Positions 32,504-38,827 of a DNA stretch of 64,000 nucleotides are shown piece by piece (position 1 is the stretch's first letter; each line of letters begins with the position of its first letter). The translations under genes were made by a program, and so were the position numbers. The notes below the pieces were generated by a model, which worked only from the letters and a program-made list of their open reading frames with translations, ran no database searches and was not told where the DNA came from. Source of the DNA: Thermanaerosceptrum fracticalcis (GTDB lineage: Bacteria > Bacillota > Peptococcia > DRI-13). The DNA is taken from assembly GCF_000746025.2 (NCBI RefSeq), contig NZ_CP045798.1:1722501-1786500 (forward strand), written 5' to 3'.

Positions 32504-32760
32504 TTATTTGCCCTGAAACCTGGGCTTGCGTTTTTCTAAGAAAGCCCTGTAGCCTTCCTGGTAATCTTGACTGTCAAAACACCTGGCCATTTCTAGTTCT
32601 ACCTTGTGTAAATCCCTTAACTCCGGCTCTTTTAGGTATTCCTCCACAGCCATCTTAACGGAACGGATGCTTCTATGACCAGGCAGATAGTTTTTTTAAT
32701 GCCCACACTGGCTTTTAAAATTTCCCCGGAAAAGGTCTTGGTTAAAAATGTTAAATGATG
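32504..32760 (-). pseudogene. C-terminal remnant of an enoyl-CoA hydratase/isomerase
   Basis: Ends at TAA 32504 and reads VKMAVEEYLKEPELRDLHKV, CFDSQDYQEGYRAFLEKRKP, FQGK: the conserved FxSxDxxEGxxAFxEKRxPxFxG tail of crotonase-family enzymes. Only about 62 codons are intact; further upstream, in another frame, KTFSGEILKASVGIKK may be an earlier piece. The catalytic part is gone. Confidence 0.8.
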
Positions 32761-32837: not shown

Positions 32838-32854
32838 TGACCTAATCTGACCTT
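32838..32854. promoter_or_regulatory. Upstream heat-shock operator (GGTCA pair, reverse orientation)
   Basis: TGACCTAATCTGACCTT: two TGACC units ten bases apart, overlapping the -35 box. It is the inverted counterpart of the site at 32889-32905. Confidence 0.65.
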
Positions 32855-32882
32855 TGCTCAAAAATATCAAAAATACGATAAT
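32854..32882 (+). promoter_or_regulatory. Sigma-A promoter of the dnaK operon
   Basis: TTGCTC (32854-32859), 17-base spacer, GATAAT (32877-32882). It is exactly bracketed by the two GGTCA operator pairs. No CIRCE element is present. Confidence 0.7.
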
Positions 32883-32888
32883 AAAATT

Positions 32889-32905
32889 AAGGTCAAGTTT
32901 GGTCA
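32889..32905. promoter_or_regulatory. Downstream heat-shock operator (GGTCA pair, CtsR-like)
   Basis: AAGGTCAAGTTTGGTCA: two GGTCA units with a 10-base period, as in CtsR boxes (GGTCAAA-NAN-GGTCAAA). It would cover the transcription start. The centre lies 51 bp, about five helical turns, from the upstream pair. Confidence 0.65.
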
Positions 32906-32949: not shown

Positions 32950-34827
32950 ATGGGAAAAGCAGTTGGTATCGACTTGGGTACGACGAACTCAGTTGTTGCT
33001 GTTTTAGAAGGTGGGAAACCTACAGTAATTGTGAATGCGGAGGGTAATAGGACAACACCCTCGGTAGTAGCTTTTAAAGATAACGGAGAAAGACTGGTCG
33101 GTCAGGTGGCTAAAAGACAGGCCGCGTTAAATCCCGACAAAACCCTTTACTCTGTGAAGAGGTTCATTGGACGCCGCTATTCGGAGGTTGCCGAAGAAAG
33201 GAACCTTGTCCCTTACAAGGTAGTGCCCGGTCCCAATGATACCGTACGTTTCGATATCGGCGGTAAACTCTATGCCCCTGAAGAAATTTCCGCCATGGTT
33301 TTAAAGAAGCTGGTTGATGATGCTTCCAAATACCTGGGAGAAAAAATCACCGATGCCGTCATTACCGTACCGGCATATTTTAATGACGCCCAGCGGCAGG
33401 CGACCAAGGACGCGGGCAAAATTGCCGGCCTCAATGTCCTGCGTATTATTAACGAACCTACGGCTGCCGCCCTGGCATACGGGCTAGACAAGAAAAAGAA
33501 TGAAACAATCCTAGTTTATGACCTGGGCGGCGGTACTTTTGACGTATCCATCCTGGAAGTAGGCGATGGCGTCTTTGAGGTAAAAGCCACCAATGGTGAC
33601 ACCCACCTGGGCGGTGACAACTTTGACAAAGTCATCGTGGATTGGCTGGCCGAAGAATTCAAGAAAGACTACGGCATCGACCTGAGAAAAGACAGGCAGG
33701 CCCTGCAGCGCCTGACGGAAGCGGCGGAAAAGGCAAAAATAGAGCTTTCCAGCATCACGGAAACTCAAATCAGCCTGCCCTTTATTACAGCCGACGCCAC
33801 TGGTCCCAAACACCTGGATATGAAACTTACCCGGGCGAAATTCGACGACCTTACCCATCACCTGGTGGAACGTACCCGCGGCCCCGTACTGGCTGCCCTG
33901 GCTGACGCCAAACTGACAGCTAAAGATATTGACCAGGTTATCCTGGTAGGAGGTTCTACACGGATTCCTGCAGTACAGCGGCTGGTACGGGAACTGACGG
34001 GAGGACGGGAACCCCATCAGGGAGTAAACCCCGATGAAGTCGTGGCCGTTGGTGCCGCCATCCAGTCAGGTGTGTTAACCGGTGAAGTGAAAGACGTCCT
34101 CCTCCTGGATGTTACCCCCCTCTCCCTGGGTGTGGAAACCCTGGGTGGTGTGATGGCAAAACTCATTGAACGGAATACCACGATCCCTGTGCGCCGCAGC
34201 CAGATTTTCACCACCGCCGAAGACAATCAACCTGCCGTAGATATCCATGTCCTGCAAGGTGAACGGGAAATGGCCAAAGACAACCGTACTTTAGGCCAGT
34301 TTAAGCTGGAAGGAATCGCCCCGGCGCCTCGCGGCGTACCTCAGATTGAAGTGACCTTTGACATCGACGCCAACGGGATTTTGAAAGTAAGCGCTAAAGA
34401 TAAAGGCACAGGAAAAGAACAAACCGTTACCATCACCGGTTCATCTACCCTGGATAAGGCAGAAATTGAGCGAATGGTCAGAGAAGCTGAAGCCAATGCG
34501 GCTGAAGATAAAAGACGCCGCCAAGAAGTAGAAATTCGCAATGAAGCTGACAGTATCATCTATCAGGTAGAACGGAAACTAAAAGAACAAGGCACTCAGT
34601 TACCCGTCCATGAAAAGGCCCGCCTTGAGCAGCTTGTCAATGACTTGAAAACAGCCTTAAAAGATAATGCTAATATTGAGCGTATCCGCTCCCTGACCAG
34701 CGACCTCCAGCAGGCTGCCGCAGCCTTCGCTCATGCAGGCAATAATCCGCAGTCAGGAAATTACTCCAGTAATACTAAAGGTTCCGGACCAGACGATGTA
34801 ATCGATGCCGAGTATCACGAGAAATAA
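32950..34827 (+). CDS. dnaK: Molecular chaperone DnaK (Hsp70)
   Basis: 625 aa. Nucleotide-binding domain from [20 protein letters not shown] with phosphate loops ([45 protein letters not shown]); substrate-binding domain with [13 protein letters not shown]; helical lid with disordered tail [26 protein letters not shown] precedes the ATG; the frame extends 32 codons upstream into the operator region and that part is not family-like. First gene of dnaK-dnaJ-cbpM-clpB with no grpE or hrcA, so this may be a second, accessory DnaK whose exchange factor is elsewhere. Confidence 0.95.
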
Positions 34828-34902: not shown

Positions 34903-35898
34903 ATGACGACATATAAAGACTATTATAAAATCCTGGGCGTGGAACGTACGGCCACGGAACAGGAGATTAAAAGCGCCTACCGTAAATTAGCCCGCCAGTA
35001 TCACCCCGACCTGAAAACAGGGAGCGAGAAAGAAGCCGCCGAAGAAAAATTCAAAGAAATTAACGAAGCTTATGAGGTTCTCAGTGATCCCGAAAAACGG
35101 GCCAAGTATGACCGTCTGGGCGCCAACTGGCAACATGGCCAGGAATGGCAACCGCCGCCTGATATGGATGGTTTCCACTTTTACACCTGGAACGATGGGG
35201 ATCTGGGTGCAACAGGTTTCAGCGACTTCTTTGAGACCCTCTTTGGCAGAGCTAGGGCTAACCGCACCGGAGGCGGCTTTCGCTGGGAGCCCCAGATGCG
35301 CGGCCAGGATATAGAAAGCGAACTTCAGCTTACCCTGGAAGAATCTTACCGGGGCGGTGAAAAAACCATTCAACTGACCTCCAGGGAAATTTGTGCCGTC
35401 TGTCAGGGCAGCGGGCACCTGGACAGGGGTATTTGTGCCTATTGCGGCGGCACAGGAAACACAACGGTGAGAAAGACCCTGGAAGTAAAGATCCCCCCAG
35501 GTATCCAGAACGGAAGCAAGATCCGCCTCAGGAATCAGGGAGGCGAAGGTTTAGGAGGTGGCCAGCGGGGTGACCTTTATCTCAAAGTCAATATCCAGCC
35601 CCATCCCCTCTTTACCCTGAAAGGAAACGACATCGAGTCTAAAGTCATCATTACCCCCGAGCAGGCTGCCCTGGGTGACAAAGTAACCACTGCCACCCTG
35701 GACGGGGATATCATCCTCACCATTCCTCCCCAGACCCACAGCGGAAAAAAGCTGCGCCTGCGCGGTAAAGGCTGGCCATTAAAGGGCGGGGGACGAGGGG
35801 ACCATTATGTGGAAGTAGTCATTGATCTCCCGGCTTTTTTGAGTGAGGCAGAACTTGATTTATACAAAAAACTAGCGGAATTAAGGAAAGGGGTGTGA
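34903..35898 (+). CDS. dnaJ: DnaJ/CbpA-type co-chaperone with half zinc centre
   Basis: 331 aa. J-domain (residues 5-70) with HPD motif in [11 protein letters not shown], then a Gly/Phe-poor linker ([20 protein letters not shown]), a central domain with only two CxxCxGxG repeats ([16 protein letters not shown]; canonical DnaJ has four) and the usual C-terminal beta domains ([20 protein letters not shown]). So it is between DnaJ and zinc-less CbpA in type, and could bind just one zinc. AAGGTGGTGAG precedes ATG. Confidence 0.92.
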
Positions 35899-35902
35899 AA
35901 CT

Positions 35903-36202
35903 ATGGTGCGTAAATATTACGTACAATTGTATCACCACACCCTTTACCCCCAGGAAGAAGCTTTTTGGATAGATATGGAAAGTTCCGGGTACCACCCTGG
36001 CTTCTTAGAACGTTTAGCAGAATTTGGGATTATCGAGATCCAGGACAACCGGCTGCGGGCAGACCAGCTCCCCAGGATTCAGAAGATTATACGTCTCCGC
36101 CAGTCCCTGGGCATCAATTTGCCTGGTGCCTCCGTCATCCTTGATCTCTTAGAACGTATCGAAGAACTTGAGCAAGAATTAGACCTGTTACGAAGGAGGT
36201 GA
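35903..36202 (+). CDS. MerR-like chaperone modulator / HspR-like protein
   Basis: 99 aa. Residues about 25-75 have a MerR-like winged HTH (SSGYHPGFLERLAEFGIIEI, DQLPRIQKIIRLRQSLGINL) and the C-terminus a coiled coil (ERIEELEQELDLLRRR). This layout fits CbpM, which inhibits the CbpA J-protein, and also HspR, the repressor that sits between dnaJ and clpB in actinobacterial dnaK operons. Position here is exactly that of hspR. It could regulate DnaJ, the promoter, or both. Begins five bases after dnaJ. Confidence 0.8.
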   Translation: MVRKYYVQLYHHTLYPQEEAFWIDMESSGYHPGFLERLAEFGIIEIQDNRLRADQLPRIQKIIRLRQSLGINLPGASVILDLLERIEELEQELDLLRRR

Positions 36203-36229: not shown

Positions 36230-38827
36230 ATGGATTTAAACCGTTATACCCAAAAATCAAGGGAAGCCATTTCTTCTGCCCAGGATCTGGCTGCCGCACG
36301 GCATCACCAGGAGGTTACCGGTAAACATTTGCTGGCGGCCCTGTTGGCCCAAGAGGGAGGCCTGGTCCCCCGTTTCCTGGAGTATGCCGGCGTTAATGTG
36401 GCTACCCTGCAGAGACTCCTGGAAGATTTATTAGCCCGTACCCCTGCTGTCCATGGCTACGAGGGGTCTTTACGGCTGGGCAGCGGTTTGGCCAGGGTAT
36501 TCCCCAGGGCTGAAAAAGAAGCCCGGGACATGAAAGATCAGTATGTCAGTGTGGAACACCTGCTCCTGGCCCTCCTGGAAGAAGGAGAAAGCGAAGTCCG
36601 GAATCTTTTCCGCCAGACAGGTTTGAGAAGGGAAACTTTACTGGCTTCTTTACAGGCTATCAGAGGTAACCAGCAGGTAACCAGCGAAAACCCCGAAGAA
36701 ACCTATGAAGCCCTGGAAAAATACGGCCGTGATTTGACCAAATTGGCCCGGGAAGGTAAACTGGACCCCGTTATCGGCCGTGATGACGAGATCCGCCGGG
36801 TCATTGAAATTCTCTCACGCCGCACCAAAAACAATCCTGTCCTCATTGGTGAACCGGGCGTGGGTAAAACTGCCATCGTGGAAGGATTAGCCCGGAGAAT
36901 CGTGGCCGGTGACGTCCCCGAAGGGCTGAAAAATAAATTAGTTATTGCCCTGGATATGGGGGCTCTTATAGCCGGCGCCAAATACCGCGGTGAATTTGAG
37001 GAAAGACTGAAAGCAGTCTTAAAAGAAGTGCAAAAGTCTGAAGGACGGATCATTCTTTTTATCGACGAACTCCACACTGTAGTAGGGGCAGGAGCGGCCG
37101 AGGGGGCCATGGATGCCGGCAACCTGTTGAAACCCATGCTGGCCAGGGGTGAACTGCGGGCCATTGGTGCCACGACTCTGGACGAATACCGTAAGCATGT
37201 GGAGAAAGATGCCGCCCTGGAACGGCGCTTCCAGCCCGTTATGGTTAATCCCCCCTCCGTGGAAGACACCATTTCCATCCTGCGGGGCTTAAAAGAACGG
37301 TACGAGGTCCATCACGGGGTACGTATCCAGGACAGCGCCCTGGTGGCAGCAGCCACACTCTCTGACCGGTATATTACTGACCGCTTCCTGCCCGATAAAG
37401 CCATCGACCTCATGGATGAAGCGGCCGCCCGTCTGCGGACAGAGATTGACAGCATGCCTACGGCTTTAGATGAAATCACCCGCCGTATTATGCAGCTGGA
37501 AATTGAAGAAGCTGCTTTGAAAAAAGAAAAAGATGCAGTTTCCCAGGAGCGGCTGCAGAAAATCCAGGAACAACTGGCTGAATTAAAAGCAGAAGCCGAT
37601 GTGATGCGTACCCAGTGGCAGGTGGAAAAACAGGCCATTGCCCGGTTACGCCAGCTGAAAAAAGAAATAGAAGAAACCCGCCTGGAAATCGAGAAAGCTG
37701 AACGGGAATATGACTTAAACCGCATGGCCGAACTAAGATACGGCAGGATGAATGACCTGGAAAGAAGACTAAAAGCGGAAGAAGAACTGCTGGCCAACAA
37801 GCAAAAGAACAACATGCTCCTAAAAGAAGAAGTGGATGAAGAGGATATTGCCCGCGTTGTCAGCCGTTGGACAGGAATCCCCCTAAATAAACTCATGGAA
37901 GGTGAAAAAGAAAAGCTTATCCACTTAGATGAGTTTCTCCACCAGCGGGTGATCGGCCAGGATCAGGCCGTACGTGCCGTGGCTGATGCGGTCTTAAGGG
38001 CCCGGGCCGGCATTAAGGACCCAAATAAGCCTATCGGCAGTTTTATCTTCCTGGGGCCCACAGGGGTAGGTAAAACAGAATTAGCCCGGGCCCTGGCTCA
38101 AGCCCTCTTTGATGATGAAAGGAACATGATCCGCATCGACATGTCCGAATACATGGAGAAACACACGGTAGCCCGTCTCATTGGTGCCCCTCCCGGTTAT
38201 GTGGGCTACGATGAAGGTGGCCAGTTAACAGAAGCCGTCCGACGCCGTCCTTATTCCGTCATTCTTTTCGATGAAATTGAAAAAGCCCACAACGACGTCT
38301 TTAATGTCATGCTGCAGATCCTGGACGACGGACGTCTTACCGATGGTAAAGGCCGTACCGTAAACTTCAAAAACACTGTCATCATCATGACCTCCAACAT
38401 CGGCAGCCAGGAAATCCTGGAATTCCAGCGCCAGGGCATTCATGATTATGACAGGATGAAGAATGCCGTCATGAATTTAATGCAACGCTACTTCCGTCCA
38501 GAATTCCTCAACAGGGTAGATGAGACGGTGGTCTTCCACGCCCTGGAACCCAAACACATGCAGGAAATTACTACCTTAATGCTGGAGCGTTTGGCCAAAC
38601 GCCTGAAAGAAACGGCCCGTCTTACCCTGACCTGGTCCCAGGAAGCCCTGGTATACCTGGCCAACAAGGGTTATGACCCCAGCTTCGGGGCCCGTCCCTT
38701 AAAAAGGCTGATCCAGCAGGAGGTGGAAACGCCCCTGAGCCGGTTGCTGGTAAAAGGGGAAGCTTCACCAGGCTCTACTATCAGCCTTGAGGCAAAAAAC
38801 GGTGAACTGCAGTTGACAGTAAAGTAA
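36230..38827 (+). CDS. clpB: ATP-dependent disaggregase ClpB
   Basis: 865 aa, full length. Clp-N repeats (residues about 1-145), NBD1 with [15 protein letters not shown] (about 205) and [19 protein letters not shown], the long coiled-coil M domain (about 410-520) that distinguishes ClpB from ClpA/C, NBD2 with [20 protein letters not shown] (about 605) and [16 protein letters not shown], and a C-terminal D2-small domain. Resolves protein aggregates together with DnaK/DnaJ encoded just upstream. GGGGG eight bases before ATG. Confidence 0.96.

Follow-up and report, generated by a model that had tools for sequence, protein, structure and literature searches.

The heat-shock operon dnaK-dnaJ-(dafA/cbpM)-clpB of Thermanaerosceptrum fracticalcis is preceded by a candidate sigma-A promoter that is framed by two GGTCA pairs facing each other. 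These two pairs are very probably operators of the repressor CtsR, which, once filled, would keep RNA polymerase off the dnaK-clpB promoter until the repressor is released on heat shock. This reading builds on features of the sequence, i.e., the sites, their geometry and conservation, the presence of CtsR and McsB and the lack of CIRCE, from which binding, start site, repression and heat induction are predicted. The window, i.e., the whole 64-kb stretch of DNA that was analysed, covers bases 1722501–1786500 of a single-contig genome of 3,805,411 bases, and the features of the locus are collected in Table 1.

Table 1. Features of the dnaK-clpB locus, in window coordinates
Feature	Position	Strand	Basis
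Left CtsR-type box, minus-strand GGTCAGATTAGGTCA (TGACC-N5-TGACC on plus); roughly −52 to −38 from the predicted start, 1 nt from its end to the −35	32838..32852	-	exact match
TTGCTC, −35 element of the predicted sigma-A promoter	32854..32859	+	sequence
−10 element GATAAT, after a 17-nt spacer	32877..32882	+	sequence
Right CtsR-type box GGTCAAGTTTGGTCA (GGTCA-N5-GGTCA), at the inferred start site	32891..32905	+	exact match
dnaK	32950..34827	+	Pfam HSP70, 880.6 bits
dnaJ/CbpA-like J protein	34903..35898	+	Pfam DnaJ and DnaJ_C
99-aa DafA/CbpM-like co-chaperone modulator	35903..36202	+	Pfam MerR_2, 63.2 bits
clpB	36230..38827	+	TIGR03346, 1387.8 bits

The locus and its candidate promoter

The original prediction described a heat-shock promoter, TTGCTC-N17-GATAAT, bracketed by two GGTCA pairs. 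Both pairs are exact, the two hexamers and their spacer are present as described, and the whole stands before dnaK-dnaJ-(DafA/CbpM-like)-clpB; the right box begins 8 nt after GATAAT, which would place the transcription start of the operon at about this box. The distance between the box centres, previously given as 51 bp, was corrected to 53 bp (32845 and 32898). Since TTGCTC is identical to TTGACA at only 3 of 6 positions, this promoter is missing from the consensus promoter scan.

The operon consists of dnaK, a dnaJ/cbpA-like gene, a MerR_2-family gene encoding 99 residues and clpB, and grpE is absent. The J protein carries two CxxCxGxG-type zinc motifs (counted by eye), compared with four in classical DnaJ. 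Upstream of the promoter, a remnant of an enoyl-CoA hydratase gene (a 55-aa C-terminal part, 98% identical) occupies window positions 32507–32671 on the minus strand; in G001, a genome of the same genus, this gene is intact and divergent from dnaK, and about 0.9 kb of the G001 DNA is missing here.

In the proposed mechanism, one CtsR dimer would occupy each 15-bp tandem repeat. The right box, lying over the predicted start site, would take the usual place of a CtsR operator; the left box, in the opposite orientation, would abut the −35 element. With both boxes filled, RNA polymerase would be blocked from both ends of the promoter, and heat shock would release CtsR and induce the operon along with ctsR-mcsA-mcsB-clpC and hsp20. 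CtsR dimers are described as binding direct heptad repeats and as being released from them by heat, by way of a glycine-rich loop (PMC12634643, PMC5506225).

Box counts and chance expectation

A single box of this kind is not beyond chance, because GGTCA-N5-GGTCA with up to one mismatch occurs twice in the 64-kb window, i.e., as these two boxes, compared with 2.72 expected in shuffles. Exact copies number 13 in the genome, nine of them inside open reading frames; the four outside are the two at dnaK, one before an hsp20 gene (HSP20, 72.5 bits) and one immediately before the sequence encoding the CtsR domain. When either A or G is allowed as the first base, 22 sites are found versus 20 for the backwards control, which is no excess, and five of the 22 lie upstream of heat-shock genes, including a second hsp20 box. 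The two hsp20 boxes (C1:832235-832285, L047) are both in the minus orientation and 36 bp apart, unlike the inverted pair at dnaK.

Two boxes facing each other across a promoter are beyond chance. The inverted double pattern, defined with R/Y as the first base of each unit and a gap of 25–55, has a single occurrence in the 3.8-Mb genome. It was found in 3 of the 25 genomes searched in the order and in 10 of the 398 searched in the phylum, and the backwards control gave 0 matches in all genomes of both sets. In the other nine phylum genomes that contain it, it lies before ctsR (six) or hsp20 (three). An accidental meeting of two unrelated GGTCA pairs could appeal to the one box that chance would supply in a window of 64 kb, but the absence of control matches over the 25 and the 398 genomes and the recurrence of the facing pair before ctsR, hsp20, clpB and dnaK leave this explanation a practically negligible probability; chance pairing was rejected, as the facing pair is conserved across families.

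Conservation in relatives

The comparison set comprised the five class genomes with the 99-aa gene (5 of 46, this genome included) together with G001 and G013. The original prediction was to be abandoned if close relatives lacked the second pair. Instead, the inverted pair is kept before dnaK in G001 and in G024 and G014, which belong to other families of the order, and before clpB in G013, from a further family. The centre distances are 53 bp in this genome (G000) and in G001, 54 bp in G024, 52 bp in G014 and 54 bp at clpB of G013. The left box has 0–1 mismatch in all four relatives, and its outer unit carries one mismatch in G024 and G014. The sequence between the boxes differs among the relatives, but a TTG directly following the left box and a −10 preceding the right box are kept; in G014, G024 and G013 the −10 is at the corresponding place by eye. 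G001 is weak evidence for conservation, since its intergenic DNA is 97.5–100% identical to the window, and the weight thus rests on G024, G014 and G013. Two genomes depart from the pattern: in G017, which has the dnaK-dnaJ-dafA/cbpM genes and CtsR, dnaK lacks a box, and dnaK of G403 has three boxes in the same direction rather than an inverted pair. A search before other chaperone operons, which had been proposed as a check, found the double site at clpB (G013), hsp20 and ctsR.

Assignment of the repressor

The genome encodes CtsR (121 bits) in a cluster ctsR-mcsA-mcsB-clpC-radA, in which McsB scores over its NCBIfam cut-off and mcsA, clpC and radA are named by sequence and gene order. The alignment of this protein with the solved CtsR structure 3h0d (6e-38) includes the glycine-rich stretch, and the ctsR gene is itself preceded by one GGTCA-N5-GGTCA box rather than two. 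Both boxes at dnaK are exact tandem RGTCA units with a 10-bp period. The CtsR consensus is given as full heptads, RGTCAAA-NAN-RGTCAAA (PMC1409795), of which the right box (GGTCAAG/GGTCAAT) and the left box (GGTCAGA/GGTCAGG) match the RGTCA core fully and RGTCAAA partly; the last two heptad positions vary likewise in the ctsR boxes of relatives. The earlier recognition of CtsR-type boxes and of a heat-shock promoter is supported.

HrcA is also encoded in the genome. Four perfect CIRCE copies were found, before hrcA, before two groES genes (one with groEL after it in view) and between two convergent genes, all of them elsewhere in the genome; none is in the 64-kb window, in agreement with the original prediction, and HrcA/CIRCE control of the dnaK-clpB promoter was rejected on this ground. 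The copy between convergent genes (C1:2175746-2175772, L049:5747) has no adjoining heat-shock gene. A second DnaK is encoded in an hrcA-chaperonin-grpE-dnaK-dnaJ operon, which has CIRCE and lacks an exact CtsR box. With CIRCE at hrcA-dnaK and CtsR boxes at dnaK-clpB, the two dnaK copies therefore appear to be split between two repressors, which suggests that CtsR may hold one copy without HrcA while the other stays under HrcA/CIRCE.

The chaperonin gene of this CIRCE-controlled operon, between hrcA and grpE (C1:1414000-1425500, L048:7939-9510), is of the thermosome type (TCP-1/CCT-like); its product scores about 300 bits with thermosome models, below the cut-off, and lower with GroEL models. 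Carboxydothermus is known to carry archaeal-like chaperonins in operons of this kind.

As for HspR/HAIR, a search with the HAIR consensus found no site at the promoter, and the sole match, with three mismatches, is inside dnaK and at chance level; this control was likewise rejected, no HAIR being found beyond chance.

A different binder had been proposed in the original prediction, namely the HspR/CbpM-like protein of the operon, i.e., the 99-aa MerR-like protein, which would bind the sites and repress its own operon in the manner of actinobacterial HspR. Its Pfam MerR_2 score (63.2 bits) fits such a role, and HspR operons carry a similar small gene between dnaJ and clpB. However, it reaches only 24.5 bits with the NCBIfam HspR model (cut-off 105) and 26.1 bits with the CbpM model (cut-off 138), far below both cut-offs, and among proteins of solved structure it is closest to DafA, a chaperone assembly factor: the family profile finds DafA at 2.6e-9 and CbpM (3ucs) at 1.5e-4, and the sequence alone finds Thermus DafA at 9.7e-4. 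DafA is known from Thermus to assemble DnaK and DnaJ into a complex (PMC3727329). The distribution of the gene also disagrees with that of the sites. In G001, dnaJ and clpB are about 78 bases apart with no DafA/CbpM-like gene between them (contig C67, L051:5017-5095) in an otherwise intact operon; no such gene was found anywhere in this genome (80% complete), which nevertheless keeps the double site. G013 has the double site before clpB with the gene not found there, and G017 has the gene but no boxes. The lack of a HAIR site beyond chance argues the same way. Because sites occur without the gene in G001, the gene occurs without sites in G017 and DafA is the best match, the 99-aa protein is taken not to be the binder, a role that we regard as extremely unlikely for it, and CtsR is preferred.

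The facing pair at ctsR promoters

A census was made of 129 ctsR upstream regions, comprising all 40 ctsR genes found in the class and 89 of the 185 ctsR-bearing genomes elsewhere in the phylum (the 29 best-scoring and 60 picked by hand, in most cases one for each family). The census does not include G173, a genome with the inverted pair, and the regions L259 and L265 are shortened by contig ends. With kinship ignored, at least one box with up to one mismatch is present in 126 of the 129 regions versus about 6 in shuffles, and the inverted pair in 23 versus 0.05. The other regions with a box have one box or no close pair (96) or same-direction pairs only (7), and the everted order, plus then minus, occurs in none of the 129. 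Fourteen of the inverted pairs are class cases, all outside this order; within the order, none was found among the sampled ctsR genes.

A scan of public genomes by the pattern alone gave 80 loci among at least 118 stretches, mostly clostridial metagenome-assembled genomes, and ctsR is directly downstream in 66 of the 80 among the matches listed. The earlier description of the arrangement as unusual is hence only partly right, as it is common at clostridial ctsR. Among the same listed matches, the −35 of the 66 ctsR double sites starts 0–2 nt after the left box in 55 and exactly 1 nt after it, as in the window, in 42, and 52 have a perfect TATAAT as their best −10. The 14 listed loci without ctsR include two before hsp20 (L071, L098), one before clpB (L125), one before a ClpE-like gene (L123) and two at the edge of the sequence (L077, L092); the eight with no heat-shock gene in view (L080, L083, L084, L085, L099, L100, L121, L129) are probably chance matches. 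At one ctsR promoter, that of G416 (L204), overlapping minus-strand boxes in 10-bp steps (centres −113, −103, −93 and −83) face plus-strand boxes at −34 and −24.

Among the ctsR regions with a single plus-strand box, 66 have a recognisable promoter, and in 59 of these the box starts 5–14 nt downstream of the −10 (seven more regions have no recognisable promoter). Since single boxes sit there, the right box can be regarded as the canonical CtsR operator and the left box as a lineage-specific addition.

Roles of the two boxes

The left box might belong to a promoter directed away from dnaK, giving two back-to-back CtsR promoters. A reverse match, TTGACC-N17-TATTAT (10/12), does start at the right box, and the divergent enoyl-CoA hydratase gene of G001 is about 430 bp away. 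However, neither G014 nor G024 keeps the reverse hexamers and G013 keeps them only poorly (by eye), the far-side gene differs or is absent in the 80 public loci among the matches listed, and the left box is fixed at 0–2 nt from the forward −35 in 55 of the 66; in the window, moreover, the divergent gene is the 55-aa remnant only. This very unlikely reading was rejected, as the reverse hexamers are not kept, the far-side genes vary and the left box is tied to the forward −35.

The original prediction considered a looping repressor to suit the inverted arrangement. Facing CtsR dimers would then touch, which their inverted orientation permits, and the promoter would be bent into a small loop or clamp, so that RNA polymerase is either trapped or excluded. 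The one-sided orientation at ctsR (minus then plus in 23 regions, plus then minus in none) speaks for such contact, as does the concentration of centre distances at 52–59 bp (51 of the 66 ctsR double sites among the matches listed), and CtsR of B. subtilis has been reported to bind cooperatively (PMC12634643, citing Derre 2000). A rigid loop on the scale of 50 bp is nevertheless unsupported, because it should demand phasing and none is seen. At 10.5 bp, the resultant is 0.14 for the phylum set (0.04 over distinct distances), and the 0.53 of the clostridial set (matches listed) is similar at 8 or 13 bp, i.e., it reflects one broad cluster. Distances of 49 and 54 bp, which differ by half a helical turn, are both frequent, the centre distances spread over 47–59 bp, and their concentration is explained by promoter length. 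The loop is thus improbable. It is possible, if doubtful, that the facing CtsR pair, clamping the promoter between −35 and start site, represents a distinct architecture that recurs in clostridia and their relatives and in which the dimers act jointly (bridged or cooperatively) as an all-or-none heat-sensitive lock, placed on ctsR in many lineages and on dnaK-clpB in this order.

The simplest reading is that two CtsR dimers occlude both promoter ends, with the second box most likely tightening repression additively. This is in line with B. subtilis, where more CtsR sites go with tighter control (PMC5506225, PMC12634643).

Significance and comparison with known systems

The comparative evidence assigns a regulator to the dnaK-clpB disaggregase operon of a little-studied lineage. 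Beyond this operon, the clostridial ctsR promoters provide a natural series of spacings for asking whether two dimers cooperate across a promoter.

The gene cluster of Thermus thermophilus, in the order dnaK-grpE-dnaJ-dafA-clpB, likewise lines up DnaK, DnaJ, a small protein of the DafA type and ClpB, whereas the operon here has no grpE and has CtsR boxes. HspR/HAIR and HrcA/CIRCE are also systems of negative control of dnaK operons, but neither site is present at the dnaK-clpB promoter here.

CtsR control of dnaK is already known (PMC3828012, PMC6305308), as described for Staphylococcus, Clostridium acetobutylicum and Oenococcus oeni in these sources, one of which names O. oeni as the only Firmicute then known with dnaK and groEL under CtsR alone (PMC6305308). 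In staphylococci, dnaK is under CtsR together with HrcA, and in C. acetobutylicum CtsR acts at hrcA-grpE-dnaK-dnaJ; here, the dnaK copy with the CtsR boxes is grouped with clpB and has no CIRCE, while the operon of hrcA and the other dnaK carries CIRCE but lacks an exact CtsR box. In the accessible text of the literature on CtsR sites and regulons, a search that covered sources other than the primary Derre papers found no description of a facing double operator, which may already be in print. The B. subtilis CtsR operators (ctsR-clpC, clpP, clpE) are likewise tandem RGTCA(AA) repeats with a 10-bp period at sigma-A promoters, with several sites per promoter (PMC12634643, PMC5506225). They are described in these accounts as direct heptad repeats, with no mention of two operators that face each other across a promoter, as the probable operators here do. 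The facing layout, recurrent before clostridial ctsR, is a varied form of the known CtsR switch rather than a new system.
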